Made by a program: the position numbers and the translations under genes
DNA from: Pseudovirgaria hyperparasitica
Taxonomy: Eukaryota; Ascomycota; Dothideomycetes; Acrospermales; Acrospermaceae
DNA length: 64,000 bases
Direction: 5' to 3'
Assembly: GCF_010093815.1 (NCBI RefSeq)
Contig: NW_022985568.1
Location: forward strand, 757,822-821,821
Part shown: one piece after another, positions 57,526-64,000 of the stretch
How positions within the stretch are numbered: the stretch's first letter is position 1
Layout: every line of letters starts with the position of its first letter
The notes under the pieces: model-generated
What the model saw: only the letters and a program-made list of their open reading frames with translations
Databases searched by the model: none
What the model was told of the DNA's origin: nothing

Positions 57526-58193
57526 GACTTAAGGAGTGATGGAGGAAGAATAGAACCAGGTCTTGAACTAGAGCGACTGAATCCCTGCATTTATACACTG
57601 GGTCATCTATATTCCGTGATATATCTATACTACTACTAACAGACCCACTTACTATACTATTAAAGTACTTTATTAGAAAGGGTACTATAATAGACCTAGA
57701 TAGATTATTCTAGTCTACTTAAGTCTTAAGTAGATTAGATTAGCTAGGTTAAGTAGAGTTACTATATAAGTATAATATAAGGTTTTAAAAGGTATATATA
57801 ATAATAATATTCTTAGAAGGTAGTTATTAGAATAGATACTAGAATAGACTTAACTAGACTACTATAGTCTAGTATAGTCTTATAATAGATAGACCTAGAT
57901 TAAGTTAGCTAGACTAAGTAAGACTACTATATAAGTAGACTATATAAATCTAATTTCTACTTCTTAGAAATTAATCTTATTATAAGAGTAGACTACCCTT
58001 CTAAATATATTCTTATATTCTTCTATAACTTATTAGACTACTATTCTATATCTATAATTCTTATATTTTAATTTCTCTTTATAATAGTAGCTTATAGAAA
58101 TAGCTTTAACTTTAACTATAATATATATAAGAAGAAGACTCTTACTTCTTTATACTCTAAGAGACTAAAACTAGTTAATTTAGAGTAATATAG

Positions 58194-58561
58194 TAATCTA
58201 TATATATTAATTAATAGAGTATACTAAGTATAATAACCTCTAATATATATATATATATATATAGTATACTAAATATAATAATACTAATATATAGAGATAT
58301 TATATATATATACTTAAAAACTCTTTAGAGATATAAGTATAGACTACTACTAGTAAATACTAATATACTAACTCTCTTTTTTATTAGTTAAGAATAGCCC
58401 TTAATTAATAACTATAGAGGTCTTAGATACTAATATACTCTAGCTTCTATTAGATATATCTCTAATACTAATATAGTAGAAATAGCTATATAGTAGAATA
58501 TTCTAGAATAATTAAATCTCTATCTTAAAGACTATAAATAATTAAAAAATATAAGAATATA
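58194..58561. repeat. Direct repeat, copy 1 (RIP-mutated)
   Basis: This aligns along its length with 58603-59112, apart from the LTR inserted in the second copy. Both copies share TAATCTATATATATTAATTA at the left and the TAGTAGAATATTCTAGAATA region at the right. Copy 1 carries more TA where copy 2 keeps C or G, so it is the more mutated one. Two adjacent direct copies 42 bp apart in front of LINE remnants could be tandem 5' UTR/promoter units of that LINE, or remains of LTRs. Confidence 0.7.
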
Positions 58562-58602
58562 GATAGTTATAAGGAGTACTAAATAGATTATAAGTCGAAT
58601 AA

Positions 58603-59112
58603 TAATCTATATATATTAATTAATAGAGTATACCAAGTATAATAATCTCTAATATATATATATATATATAGTATATAAGTGTCAGGCACGTGAGGAGCAC
58701 GTGGCCTGCTAGTTGATTATACATGTGTGTAGCAGTCGTATATAAGCAGTGTGCTCCACCCTTGAAGTAGTAGCTTTAAGATTCGGTCCTTTTGGTATAG
58801 TTGGTTGGTGCGTAGAGCCCGTCTCCTTACAATAAGACGTAATAATACTAATATATAGAGATACTATATATATATACTTAAAAACTCTTTAAAGATATAA
58901 GTATAGACTACTACTACTAAACGCTAATATACTAACCCCCTTTTATTAGTTAAGGATAGCCCTTAACTAATAACTATAGAGGTCTTAGATATCGATATAC
59001 CCTAGCTTTCGCTAGATATATCTCTAATCCTAGTATAGTAGAAACGGCTATATAGTAGAATATTCTAGAATAATTAAACCCCTATCTAAAAAGTAATAAA
59101 TAAGAATATAAA
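58603..59112. repeat. Direct repeat, copy 2, interrupted by a solo LTR
   Basis: This is the second copy of the repeat described for 58194-58561. It is about 353 bp without the 152-bp LTR and its 5-bp duplication. It keeps motifs such as CTAACCCCC and GATATCGATATACCCTAG that read as CTAACTCTC and GATACTAATATACTCTAG in copy 1. Confidence 0.7.
58680..58831 (+). mobile_element. Solo LTR, intact, not RIP-mutated
   Basis: This 152-bp sequence starts TGTCAGGCACGTG and ends GTCTCCTTACA, so it has TG...CA termini. It is flanked by the perfect 5-bp target duplication ATAAG (58675-58679 and 58832-58836). It contains a TATATAA box at 58739-58745 and, about 29 bp downstream, TAGTAGCTTTAAGAT (58768-58782), a plausible transcript start. 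The three inverted copies at 60914-61951 are RIP-mutated versions of the same LTR. Its normal composition within a RIP block, and the fact that it splits an older repeat, show that it arrived late. At 152 bp it is below the length RIP usually recognises (a few hundred bp). Confidence 0.85.
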
Positions 59113-60200
59113 GTACTATAGATAAAGAAGAAAGAGAGAACTCTATCTAGAGATACTCTTCTAGATAAAATTAACTACTAGATAGTATATATAGAGAGGG
59201 AGGTTAAGAAAGATAAGACTACCCTTCTTAGTATCTTCTAGAGTCTAGTCTAGAATATTAAGAAGCTTACTATAAGAGTAAAATAAATACTAGAGATAAG
59301 TCTAGAATTAAGGTTAGACTAAATTAAGGCTAGCCTACTAAGAATCTAGAAAGGCCTTACCTAGAAAAAACGTCTATCTATCTAGGCCTAAGTTATAGTA
59401 TTACTAGATAGTATAACTAGAATAATCTAAATACTAAGAATATCTATAGAAGAAGTATATAGTATATAGATTACTATCTAGAATAAGAAAGTTCTTATAT
59501 AGGTCTAAAAGGTATCTCTAAAGGATATTATTAATAAGATTAATAAATAAAAAGAGATATAGTTAAATATAGTTATAGCTAAACTTACTCTAGAAGGTAT
59601 AATATTAACTACTACTACTAATATAGTCTAGTAGACTATCTTCTATAACCTAAATATAATTAATAATATCTTTTCTAGTATCTCTATCTATACTAATATA
59701 TATCTAATATAGATATATATAGTCTCTATCTAGGGATATATTATTAGTACTAATAATATTAAGTAAATAGAATAATCTAATAAATAGAAGTACCCTAGAA
59801 TTAAGATTATAAAGGTATAGTAGAAGAATATATAAGGGATTAAGGTAAAATTAAAAAAGTACTCTACTATAATAGTAGAGCTCTAAGACTCTACTCTTAT
59901 CTATTAGATTATATAGAAAGACTTCTTAGCTAATAGGGAGTTACTTATAGTAGAACTATAGAATAAGGCTTAGATAATAATCTAATACTTTAACTATTAG
60001 AGATATAGATATATAGAATAGAGATACTCTTAGAAGACTATCTATAGATAGTACTAATAGAACTATAGTATCTAGGAATACCTATATAAAGTCTAAGGGG
60101 ACTATATATATAATAAAGATACTACTAAGTACTCTAACTATAATAGAAATTATCTATTATAGTTAGTAATATATATAATATAAAATATAAATAAGTTACT
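59113..60200 (+). mobile_element. RIP-mutated LINE ORF1 (Gag-like, zinc-knuckle) remnant
   Basis: At 59986-60160 the plus strand reads YFNY-stop-RYRYI, then RYS-stop-KTIYR, then KYSNYNRNY. Undoing C-to-T/G-to-A gives the cysteine/histidine spacing of CCHC knuckles (CxxC pairs as in C-F-N-C-Q-R-Y-G-H and C-S-N-C-x-G-x-H). Such triple knuckles end the ORF1 protein of fungal Tad1-like LINEs. The frame upstream to about 59,113 is similar in style but has no sure landmark. Many stops; no function remains. Confidence 0.6.
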
Positions 60201-60477
60201 AAGTATATTAATACTATAAAGGTAAGAGAAGTAAGATAGATATAATAGACTATAAGACCTCTACTATCTATTCTAACTATATCTATAAATATACTAACTA
60301 ACTTATAAGAAGACGGGACTAATATATAATAGTATACTATATAGAGGAAGATAGGGTAACCCTAGAGTATTCTTAAGGTAGCTACTATATAGAGATAGTC
60401 ATGTCTTAATACTACTAGTATATAGACTTAAGCGTTCCCTAGTATCTAATAAGAAGCTAAGATATATTTATTATTAT

Positions 60478-60828
60478 ACTAGGGTGGCCTACGGCCGGTA
60501 GACTACGTGTAGTCTTAATTTAAGGTACTAAGGTACTAAGGTACGCTGGAAAATCCACGGCTAAGACGTGTAAATTTTTAAGCTACTACTAAACGCAATA
60601 CTAGAGACTTATAAACCTATCTTATCTATAAGTATAGCCCTATAGAGGGTAAAAAGTATATAAAAATACTTATCGTAGATAGGGCTATAAAACTAGAGAC
60701 TAGATTTTTAAATTAGGGCCTAGTTAATTTAATATATTATAAAAGGTAGATTTTTTATCATGATTCTAGTGAGGGCGCTAGCGGGCGCTAGATAAAACAT
60801 TATATCTTTTTATAATTCCTTTGGAATA
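60478..60828 (+). repeat. Dispersed repeat, RIP-mutated copy of 46210-46584
   Basis: It begins ACTAGGGTGGCCTACGGCCG and ends TTCCTTTGGAATA like the clean copy, with changes mostly C-to-T and G-to-A plus a deletion in the minisatellite and in the middle. The conserved GGGCGCTAGCGGGCGCTAGA pair is kept. It lies between the LINE ORF1 and endonuclease remnants. Confidence 0.8.
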
Positions 60829-60913
60829 GGCGAATATATAATATAAATAAGCAAACTAGGCTATACTTCTAGAAGAGATAGATACTATAATAATAGCTAT
60901 CTAGAAGCTATAT

Positions 60914-61951
60914 TATAAGAAGATAGACTCTATATACTAACTAACTATACTAAAAGGACCGAATCTTAAAGCTACTACTTCAAGGGTGGAGTACACTACT
61001 TATATATAACTACTATATACATGTAATCGACTAGTAGACTACGTGCTTCTCACGTATCTAATAATATCTCCCCTTTTTAAAGGCGCGTGTCCTTATATAT
61101 CGTAGGCATGTTACCTTATAAAAGATAAACTAAACTAGCCGTAATAGGCCTAGTATAAACTATATATACACCTAATTAATATTTATAGTACCGCCTCTAG
61201 TACTAGACACGCTAACTTACTATAGTAACGTTACTACTATGTTATCTATTATATATAGAGTACGTAATATAGTAAGCTAAATAGAATTATATAAAATTTA
61301 ATAATAGTTAACTAGACCAAGAGTTAAACCCGTAACCCTATAGTAGCTTTAAGATTATATAAGAAGATAGACTCTATATACTAACTAACTATACTAAAAG
61401 GACCGAATCTTAAAGCTACTACTTTAAGGGTGGAGTACACTACTTATATATAACTACTATATACATGTAATTAACTAGTAGGCCACGTGCTCCTTACGTA
61501 TCTAATAATATCTCCCCTTTTTAAAGGCGTGTATTCTTATATATTATAGGTATGTTACCTTACAAAAGATAAACTAAACTAGCCGTAACGGGCCTAGTAT
61601 AAACCATGTACACACCTAATTAATATTCGTAGTACCGCCTCTAGTACTAGACACGCTAACTTACCGTAGTAATATTACTACTATATTATTTATTACATAT
61701 AGAGCACGTAACGTAGTAAGCTAAATAGAATTATATAAAATTTAATAATAGTTAACTAGACCGAGAGTTAAACCCGTAACTCTATAGTAGCTTTAAGATT
61801 ATATAAGAAGGTAGACTCTATATACTAACTAACTATACTAAAAGGACCGAATCTTAAAGCTACTACTTTAAGGATGGAGTACACTACTTATATATAACTA
61901 CTATATACATGTAATTAACTAGTAGGCCACGTGCTTCTTACGTGCCTAATA
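60914..61951 (-). mobile_element. Tandem TRIM-like LTR retrotransposon: 3 LTRs, 2 interiors
   Basis: Three 150-bp LTR copies (60914-61063, 61358-61507, 61802-61951) recur at exactly 444 bp and are RIP-mutated reverse complements of the solo LTR. Between them are two near-identical 294-bp interiors (61064-61357, 61508-61801) without coding capacity. The sense strand is minus. The purine tract AAAAAGGGGAGATAT lies directly before each 3' LTR (plus-strand 61064-61078 and 61508-61522). The opposite end of each interior carries a 15-nt sequence two bases from the LTR (61341-61355, 61785-61799) that is complementary to the LTR's probable transcript start. The array is flanked by TATAT on both sides (60909-60913, 61952-61956). 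LTRs, PPT, priming site and TSD with no genes define a TRIM. A shared middle LTR is typical of tandem TRIMs. Confidence 0.75.
61341..61355 (-). promoter_or_regulatory. Putative self-priming primer-binding site of the TRIM
   Basis: The plus strand reads TAGTAGCTTTAAGAT; on the sense (minus) strand it is ATCTTAAAGCTACTA, two bases after the LTR end. It is the exact complement of the LTR segment 58768-58782 that lies about 29 bp after the TATA box. In Tf1-type elements the 5' end of the RNA folds back to the PBS and primes reverse transcription; this layout fits. A second copy is at 61785-61799. Confidence 0.6.
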
Positions 61952-61956
61952 TATAT

Positions 61957-62640
61957 AAATACTACTAAACTAATAAACTAATAATATACCTAGAATACTA
62001 TACTATCTACCCCCTAGACCTAGATAGAAGAGTTCTATTCTATATATATAAATCTATTCTACTCTTAGAATAGTTCTATATAGAATAGAATAACCTCTAG
62101 ATAATACTATATCTCTAGATAGAAATAGGGCCTCTCTATATCTATAATATCTATAACTAGAGAGAATTACTTATACTAGATACTATACTAGAGAGTATTA
62201 TAGAACTAGAATAATATATTCTTCTAGATAACTTTAACCTCTACTATAGATAGTAGGGAGGCCTAATAGTTATTAGGGAAGAGCTTAGAGTAAGGGAACT
62301 ATATATAAGATACTATAACCTTCTATATCTTCTTATACTAGTTAGATAAATTATATAGAGGAAATATAAGAAGGATAAGAAGAGATCTATACTTAACCTT
62401 ACCCTTACTACGGAATATATAAGCTATAGAGTATAATATTACTACTCTAGTAAGATATAGATAGACTCTAACTATAAATATATAGAGACTATAATAGATA
62501 TATCTATATCTAATAAATAATAGAAGAGATAGCTATAGAAAGATACTAACTAGAAGAAGTATAGAGAGGACCTAGAATTAGCGATTCTAGACCTCTCTAT
62601 AATTAATATATCTAATAGCCTAGCCATAGATAGAGTCGTA
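61957..62640 (+). mobile_element. RIP-mutated LINE endonuclease-domain remnant
   Basis: The plus strand contains GPLYIYNIYN near 62,130 and, at 62221, LLDNFNLYYR-stop-stop-GG. The latter is a RIP-degraded form of the L-G-D-F-N-x-H-H-x-x-W-G-G block of apurinic-like endonucleases in Tad1-type LINEs. It continues the LINE interrupted after the ORF1 remnant. All frames are closed by stops. Confidence 0.6.
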
Positions 62641-63153
62641 TAAGCTCTTCTTTAAGCCTTCTAAAACTTAAGAGATAAATATATACTATACTAAATATAT
62701 AAGCCCCTAGATATAAGAGATATACCTTAAATATATAAAAGTAGAAGAGAAGTCTAGAGACTATATATACGTGTATACTATATCTAGATAACTAAAGTAT
62801 AGAAGAAATAGAAAGAGATAATCTAATCTTATAATAGGACTCTCCGTAATAAATAATATAAATACTAGTATATAATTACTAATAAATATATATACTAGGC
62901 TATAGGGCTATAGTATATAATAAAGTAGACTAAGAGCGTAGATATACTAACGCTACTACTACTACTACCTCCTCTAATATACTAGGGAAGGATATATACT
63001 ATAAGCTCTAAAAAGATAGAGATTCTCTAAGAAGTTATATTTCCCCCCCTAGAGCTAGTAGACCTATTAGATATTAATAATAATATATATCTAGATATAG
63101 TTAATATCTCTATAGAGATTATAGAAGAAGATATACTTAATACTATTAAAGTA

Positions 63154-63800
63154 CTCCCGAATAATAAAGCGTCTAGACTAGATAAAATACTAAATAGATA
63201 CCTTAAATATACTATATAGATAATCTTACTACTTATTAGTCTTATCTTCTAGATATATACTAAGAACGGGTACTACCCCTAAAGCTTCTAGACTATCTAT
63301 ACTATTATACTTCTAAAGCTAGAGAAAAACTCTAACTCCCTAAAAGGATAGAGACTAATTACCCTTCTCTTCTATCTTAGTAAGATACTTAAGACTATAA
63401 TCGCGAAGAAGATAAGTACTATAGTATAAGAATATAATCTTCTTCTAGCGAACTAGAAGGTAAAGACTAGAAGCTCTCTAATTACTACTATCTAATATAT
63501 TCTTAAAGTTATCTAGACTATATAGAAGTAGAGACGCGTAGTAATATTACTCTCTCTTAATATAGCTAGTATATTTAATAGGATAAACTATATAAGACTT
63601 ATCTATAACCTATAGAAGAGATATATACCTAAATAGATTATAAAGTTTATATAGTCCTTCCTTATATAAGTTTTATATATATAATAATCTTATAATCTAT
63701 TATATATATAATATATAAGTTATATAGAATAAGAGTCTAGCTCTACTCTATTCTATTCTATAGAAGTATATTCTCTAGTACTCTATAGACGAGTTCTAGT
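63154..63800 (+). mobile_element. RIP-mutated LINE reverse-transcriptase remnant
   Basis: Starting at 63154 the frame reads LPNNKASRLDKILNRYLK, then GYYP-stop-SF, ILLKLEKNSNSLKG-stop-RLI, LLFYLSKILKTIIAKKIS, LLSLNIASIFNRI and FI-stop-SFL. These match, in order, the LINE RT blocks LPNNKAPGPDGIPN, G-Y-Y-P, LxKPGK...RPI, LLSTLGKILEKIIA and the LDIxGAFDNV motif region. The active-site region further down is unreadable. The domain is of the Tad1/I type judged by these motifs. No activity is possible. Confidence 0.75.
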
Positions 63801-64000
63801 TCTATTCTACCTCTACTCTACTCTAGAGGTAACTAAGCTCTATTCTACTCTAGAAACTAGACTAGAATCTATAACTTCCTTAGAGACTATAGACTAGGAG
63901 ACTTATATTAATATAAGCTAGTACTAGCTTATATTAGATTAAGTAGGAATCGGAAGTACATGGATAGAGATAATATATTAATTAATATATTAACTCTTAG

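Follow-up and report, generated by a model that had tools for sequence, protein, structure and literature searches.

A TRIM-like element with a predicted Tf1-type self-priming anatomy in a RIP-mutated block of Pseudovirgaria hyperparasitica

A short tandem array on contig NW_022985568.1 of the ascomycete Pseudovirgaria hyperparasitica raises two questions, namely whether it is a retroelement with long terminal repeats (LTRs) or a satellite, and from which primer an element of this size and without genes would be reverse transcribed. The window analyzed here is a stretch of 64,000 nt (positions 757,822 to 821,821 of the contig, assembly GCF_010093815.1; all coordinates below are counted from its first letter), in which the array occupies 60914-61951, with its sense strand on the minus strand, within DNA altered by repeat-induced point mutation (RIP). 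The explanation that we favor, with a probability of about 0.77, is a miniature protein-free LTR retrotransposon of about 594 bp (150 + 294 + 150), which would be self-primed like Tf1 and is present as a three-LTR tandem. Such an element resembles the terminal-repeat retrotransposons in miniature (TRIMs), and the part of its anatomy that suggests self-priming is a 16-nt site next to the LTR that is complementary to the LTR itself.

Array anatomy and a candidate self-complementary primer site

In the whole window, Tandem Repeats Finder (TRF) detects one 444-bp tandem array, at 60914-61956, with 2.3 copies, 93% matches and zero indels, and cutting at the 444-bp period gives the layout LTR-interior-LTR-interior-LTR, with a total of 1,038 bp and no length variation among the parts. 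Read along the sense (minus) strand, these are the 5'-most LTR 3 (150 bp, 61802-61951), interior 2 (294 bp, 61508-61801), the shared middle LTR 2 (150 bp, 61358-61507), interior 1 (294 bp, 61064-61357) and the 3'-most LTR 1 (150 bp, 60914-61063). A comparison of the two units over 444 sites shows 33 differences, every one of them a transition.

The original prediction, made from the sequence, missed that the putative primer-binding site (PBS) is the complement of a sequence in the LTR of the element itself, as in Tf1. Sense-strand interior positions 2-17, AATCTTAAAGCTACTA, are reverse-complementary over all 16 nt to part of the LTR, namely positions 87-102 of the array LTRs and 89-104 of a solo LTR of the same family (described below), and the complement is perfect for the solo LTR and all three array LTRs against both interiors. 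The PBS lies at 61785-61800 in interior 2 and at 61341-61356 in interior 1, and the matching self-primer lies at 61850-61865 in LTR 3, where it is the predicted RNA 5' end, at 61406-61421 in LTR 2 and at 60962-60977 in LTR 1 (all on the minus strand), and at 58768-58783 on the plus strand in the solo LTR. In all four LTRs a TATATAAG box (TATA; 61887-61894, minus strand, in LTR 3) precedes the primer stretch, with 29 nt from its first T to the start of the stretch, about where a TATA-dependent transcript would be expected to begin. The arrangement typical of Tf1/sushi elements, a PBS complementary to the RNA 5' end (here a predicted one), is present at the sequence level only.

The match exceeds every control that was run. 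The 16-mer occurs six times in the 64 kb, exclusively in the four LTRs and at the two PBS positions. When LTR 1 and interior 1 were shuffled jointly, none of 300 shuffles reached 16 nt (largest 14), and the same was true when the solo LTR was shuffled 2000 times and compared with the unshuffled first 20 nt of interior 1 (largest 12). Junction-like windows gave no match of 16 nt either, neither among 445 sampled on the plus strand of the RIP block (largest 14) nor among 948 sampled in positions 1-57000 (largest 11), and a search of the 6.2-kb block for perfect 16-bp inverted repeats with a loop no longer than 184 nt gave the two LTR/PBS pairs and no others. The predicted leader fold keeps all 16 pairs in both units, enclosing 49 nt (48 from the LTR and one from the interior). 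The element seems to bear the signature of Tf1/sushi-type self-priming within about 594 bp of gene-less DNA.

The remaining parts of the array largely agree with what had been predicted, that is, three LTRs of 150 bp and two interiors of 294 bp at a period of exactly 444 bp, with TATAT on both outer edges and without an open reading frame (ORF). The TATAT target-site duplication (TSD) is found at 60909-60913 and 61952-61956; taken alone it is modest evidence for insertion, because two random 5-mers in the saturated AT-rich block agree by chance with a probability of 0.008. No ORF is present in the array and its longest stop-free stretch measures 34 codons, although RIP could have erased a reading frame. 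A purine tract had been claimed before each LTR and holds for two of the three, since no interior precedes the sense-5'-most LTR: the polypurine tract (PPT) AAAAAGGGGAGA lies at the sense-strand end of both interiors, 3 nt before the LTR (61511-61522 in interior 2 and 61067-61078 in interior 1, minus strand). The array LTRs have the ends TATTAG...CTTATA, with terminal bases as RIP would leave them.

From this anatomy we infer a replication cycle in which RNA polymerase II probably starts from the LTR TATA box, so that the RNA 5' end is the 16-nt primer sequence. This end would fold back and pair with the PBS one base past the LTR, and the paired end would be cut and then extended, without a tRNA primer, by a reverse transcriptase that another element provides in trans, most likely an autonomous chromovirus of the Tf1/sushi type. 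Plus-strand synthesis would start at AAAAAGGGGAGA, and integration would yield the 5-bp target duplications.

Several observations weigh against such a cycle. Tf1 is reported to require two accessory duplexes (the "pretzel") beyond primer/PBS pairing, and it uses 11 nt where the array element has 16. An 8-pair block between the un-RIPped U5 part of the LTR and the sequence after the PBS was considered as an accessory duplex of this type, but shuffles reach the same energy. Pairing of the solo-LTR U5 with the post-PBS sequences reaches -20.8 and -18.2 kcal/mol, values that joint shuffles equal in 88 and 156 of 1000 cases, respectively. With U5 of the RIPped array, none of the six combinations does better than shuffles, of which 803 to 925 in 1000 are as good. 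A hairpin in U5 is likewise matched by shuffles (478 of 500 fold as well), and the energy of the whole-leader fold is ordinary for its composition (z -1.16 and -1.60). One base lies between the LTR end and the 16-nt duplex, and the 16-nt motif contains neither CpA nor TpG, hence its survival under RIP is uninformative about selection. Finally, the window holds one array and one solo LTR, and blastn found in it no simple two-LTR copy and no further element with this LTR or interior.

The solo LTR and the class of the element

The solo LTR, 152 bp long, lies at 58680-58831 on the plus strand, 2 kb from the array and opposite in orientation to the array LTRs, from which it is separated in alignment by a single 2-nt indel. 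Its ends are TGTCAG...CTTACA, it has no sign of RIP, and it is flanked by the target-site duplication ATAAG at 58675-58679 and 58832-58836. The insertion can be compared with its empty site, as a repeated unit occurs here in two adjacent copies (58186-58560 and 58595-59130), both AT-rich and RIPped, the second of which holds the solo LTR. The sister copy (aligned from 58186) runs uninterrupted through the insertion point, and the two copies align gap-free at the site once the solo LTR and one ATAAG are omitted; the sister copy differs at three of the five ATAAG bases, and one of these differences is a transversion. The upstream part of the solo LTR also contains two CACGTG boxes, at 58687 and 58698 (58687-58703), which we take to be possible binding sites of the basic helix-loop-helix type.

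When the solo LTR, LTR 2 and both interiors were compared with the 64 kb by blastn, one 20-bp match (62503-62522) was found beyond their own loci, and the array and the solo LTR represent two independent insertions of the LTR family within the window. Searches of viral contigs and prokaryotic genome contigs for relatives gave no match with exact patterns, by which diverged or RIPped relatives would be missed. With LTRs of 150 and 152 bp and 594 bp from LTR to LTR, the element falls within the size range of TRIMs (LTRs of about 100-250 bp, element below 1 kb), and it shares with them the absence of coding capacity, a PPT before the 3' LTR and, in the solo LTR, TG...CA ends together with a short TSD. 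These features support the assignment of array and solo LTR to a miniature non-autonomous, TRIM-like LTR element rather than a satellite.

Known systems and rival explanations

Among known systems, the array element resembles the TRIM class in its short LTRs (150-152 bp), its total of about 594 bp, its PPT, solo LTR and LTR-sharing tandem (class traits from PMC6934838), and also in having no ORF and a 5-bp TSD. It differs in that the site after the 5' LTR of the array element complements its own LTR and not evidently a tRNA, and in the heavy RIP damage. The bivalve biv-TRIMs likewise lack a canonical tRNA PBS and form solo LTRs and tandems, and their authors mention self-priming elements in the text available (PMC6934838), whereas in the array element a candidate primer can be named at the sequence level. 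The Tf1/sushi group of chromoviruses (Tf1, Tj1) and other elements listed as self-primed (Maggy, Skippy, Boty, Cft-1, Grasshopper, Afut1) share a PBS that directly follows the LTR and complements the predicted RNA 5' end (PMC4600332, PMC10085805, PMC7175516, PMC6934838). In Tj1 the PBS is complementary to the RNA 5' end as in Tf1 (PMC4600332), and the arrangement is described as a common feature of the Tf1/sushi chromoviruses (PMC10085805). In contrast to these, the array element encodes no Gag, PR, RT or IN and could work only with enzymes in trans. The fungal GalEa Copia elements with a Conserved Hairpin Site also lack a conventional PBS and have a hairpin sequence after the 5' LTR (PMC5445492, in excerpt), yet both of their hairpin sequences lie after the LTR, whereas the complement in the array element is inside it.

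Four other explanations were weighed. The one that survives best, which we regard as unlikely, is that the array is no replicating family but the remnant, after internal deletion, of a single autonomous element of the Tf1/sushi type, which later became a tandem by recombination between LTRs. The PBS, primer and PPT would then come from the parent, and the window indeed holds a single interior-bearing locus; however, the interior retains no coding trace (the 34-codon stretch is its longest free of stops, though RIP would hide one), and the window contains no further element with this LTR.

Appreciably less probable is an ordinary tRNA-primed TRIM, in which the match between LTR and interior would be a coincidence or a relic. 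In the usual description TRIMs have a tRNA-complementary PBS (PMC6934838, in excerpt), and the TAA that opens the RIPped interior could in principle derive from TGG, but TGG itself is absent from the first 38 nt of both interiors, where a standard tRNA site is not evident, no host tRNA set having been compared. A chance or relic origin also has to accommodate a 16-nt junction match beyond all controls and a TATA spacing that suits the primer as RNA 5' end in every one of the four LTRs.

A TRIM of the Helenus type, in which the LTR carries a tRNA-like pol III promoter, is largely refuted and very improbable. It would draw on one perfect A-box-like string, TGGTATAGTTG, at solo LTR position 114 and on a RIP-tolerant B-box-like string, GTTTAACTC, in each interior. 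These strings are attractive, but the window yields no tRNA to ARAGORN at default settings, permissive ARAGORN gave two and six calls that are mutually inconsistent, and Rfam finds no tRNA in 57800-64000 at E<=5 (three matches to other families, all below their gathering scores) and no match whatever in 58740-58870 at E<=10. In addition, a start set by the A and B boxes would fall downstream of most of the self-primer. Helenus (TRIMp3) is a miniature LTR element of fungi with 5-bp TSDs, and in the excerpt of the source it is reported from rusts and some Agaricomycetes (PMC10886601); its LTR differs from that of the array family, in which neither Rfam nor default ARAGORN detected a tRNA-like sequence.

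A 444-bp satellite, or a simple tandem duplication without retrotransposition, would agree with the exact period and two units of the array, but we give it almost no credence and it is ruled out within the window, where the LTR stands at both the start and the end of the array and, at 58680-58831, also alone and reversed with TG...CA ends and 5-bp duplications; the original prediction had preferred a TRIM unless copies consisted of the tandem unit only, and its preference is supported by this isolated LTR and its empty-site sister copy.

RIP, the order of events and implications

The miniature LTR element favored here lies among DNA in three states of mutation, which are distinguished by CpA/TpG counts and by the direction of substitutions: the flanking DNA is RIP-saturated, the array is partly mutated and the solo LTR is without sign of RIP. 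Positions 1-57000 contain 7,945 CpA/TpG, while from 57647 to the window end, with the solo LTR, the array and 60400-60860 set aside, only five occur in about 4,700 bp. The edge of the RIP block is abrupt, as DNA averaging about 49% GC is followed by almost 1 kb (57647-58633) with zero CpA/TpG. The solo LTR has 23 CpA/TpG in 152 bp, the first and last at its two ends, the array has 37 in 1,038 bp, and the array's immediate flanks (60854-60913 and 61952-62624) have none. After removal of the 2-nt indel, 27, 26 and 27 substitutions lead from the solo LTR to array LTRs 1, 2 and 3, and C>T or G>A account for 26 of 27, 26 of 26 and 26 of 27 of these. By context, the changed C are 15-17 of 23 in CpA, 6 of 12 in CpG, 3-5 of 15 in CpC and 0 of 23 in CpT.

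RIP also varies locally, because the stretch left of the array, 60400-60860, is only partly mutated, with 14 CpA/TpG between 60400 and 60852. It contains GC-rich motifs such as GGGCGCTAGCGGGCGCTAG and is possibly the inter-ORF part of a long interspersed nuclear element (LINE) or a separate insertion. A piece within 63040-63666 matches RVT_1 at E 0.0099, which falls short of the Pfam cut-off (16 bits where 29.6 are required), and the sequence immediately to the right of the array gave no match at E<=0.1. By eye, a reading frame appears continuous across the site once the array and one TATAT are removed, and about 59000-63700 is weakly identified as a RIP-ruined LINE-like element that the TRIM array apparently interrupts.

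The element would have inserted into DNA from which RIP had already removed CpA, become or arrived as an LTR-sharing tandem, and then been partly RIPped. The original prediction placed the formation of the array before RIP, and only part of this stands. The 33 unit differences, all of them transitions, fit mutation that continued once the tandem existed, but the flanks are more mutated than the array and a simple order of tandem first and RIP second is not established, because the LTRs share more RIP-type changes than independent RIP predicts. Among 73 C sites, 9 vary between the three LTRs, whereas independent RIP at dinucleotide rates predicts 32.4 (sd 3.4, minimum 21 in 5000 runs) and a leave-one-out model with C+2 context, on 71 sites, predicts 28.6 (sd 3.2, minimum 15). 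Independent RIP of three existing LTRs was rejected on these numbers, extreme context dependence remaining compatible: a tetranucleotide model, which is overfit as it uses 41 contexts on 73 sites, expects 11.8 variable sites, which agrees with 9 (fraction <=9: 0.117). RIP may have acted in large part before the tandem existed, the copies may have been homogenized, or site context may be almost deterministic. A mosaic middle LTR was considered as well and set aside, as the 11 variable columns across the three LTRs show, by eye, no single switch point, and timing from CpA density alone is weakened by 60400-60860, which is likewise only partly RIPped. The tandem may have arisen by recombination between LTRs or because a tandem form was itself retrotransposed, and a plant study of tandem LTR elements was, as excerpted, likewise unable to separate the two (PMC11899658).

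In Neurospora crassa, RIP is reported to work less well on sequences below about 500 bp and to leave those below about 200 bp almost unaffected (PMC9970103, a Zymoseptoria paper, in excerpt). Short length, like late arrival, may thus account for the clean state of the solo LTR, and the solo LTR would have stayed untouched by arriving after RIP, by being too short for it, or both.

The original prediction, which called a fungal family with RIP damage unusual, was overstated in that fungal TRIMs are on record: the excerpted reports include nine TRIM elements in Cochliobolus heterostrophus (PMC4112212), four TRIM sequences in Ascochyta lentis, with an average of 2,123 bp that is long for TRIMs (PMC8022934), and TRIMs in Venturia (PMC4646964) and, as Helenus, in rusts (PMC10886601). 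Self-priming, in turn, has been described in fungal and vertebrate chromoviruses of full size (PMC10085805). It is known in larger fungal retrotransposons, while no description of a self-primed TRIM was found in the literature searched, which was available partly in excerpt and leaves out most subscription journals. A wider and decidedly tentative proposal is that of a self-primed TRIM family, parasitic on Tf1/sushi chromoviruses, which bypasses both the tRNA primer and RIP in that short isolated LTRs escape and only tandems are long enough to be mutated. If self-priming is correct, primer, primer site, PPT and integration ends would all be packed into about 600 bp without genes, which would make the element a candidate for a minimal substrate of self-primed reverse transcription in trans and would point to its helper. 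With a saturated host, a partly mutated array and a clean solo LTR side by side, the locus is also informative on how RIP catches short elements or misses them.
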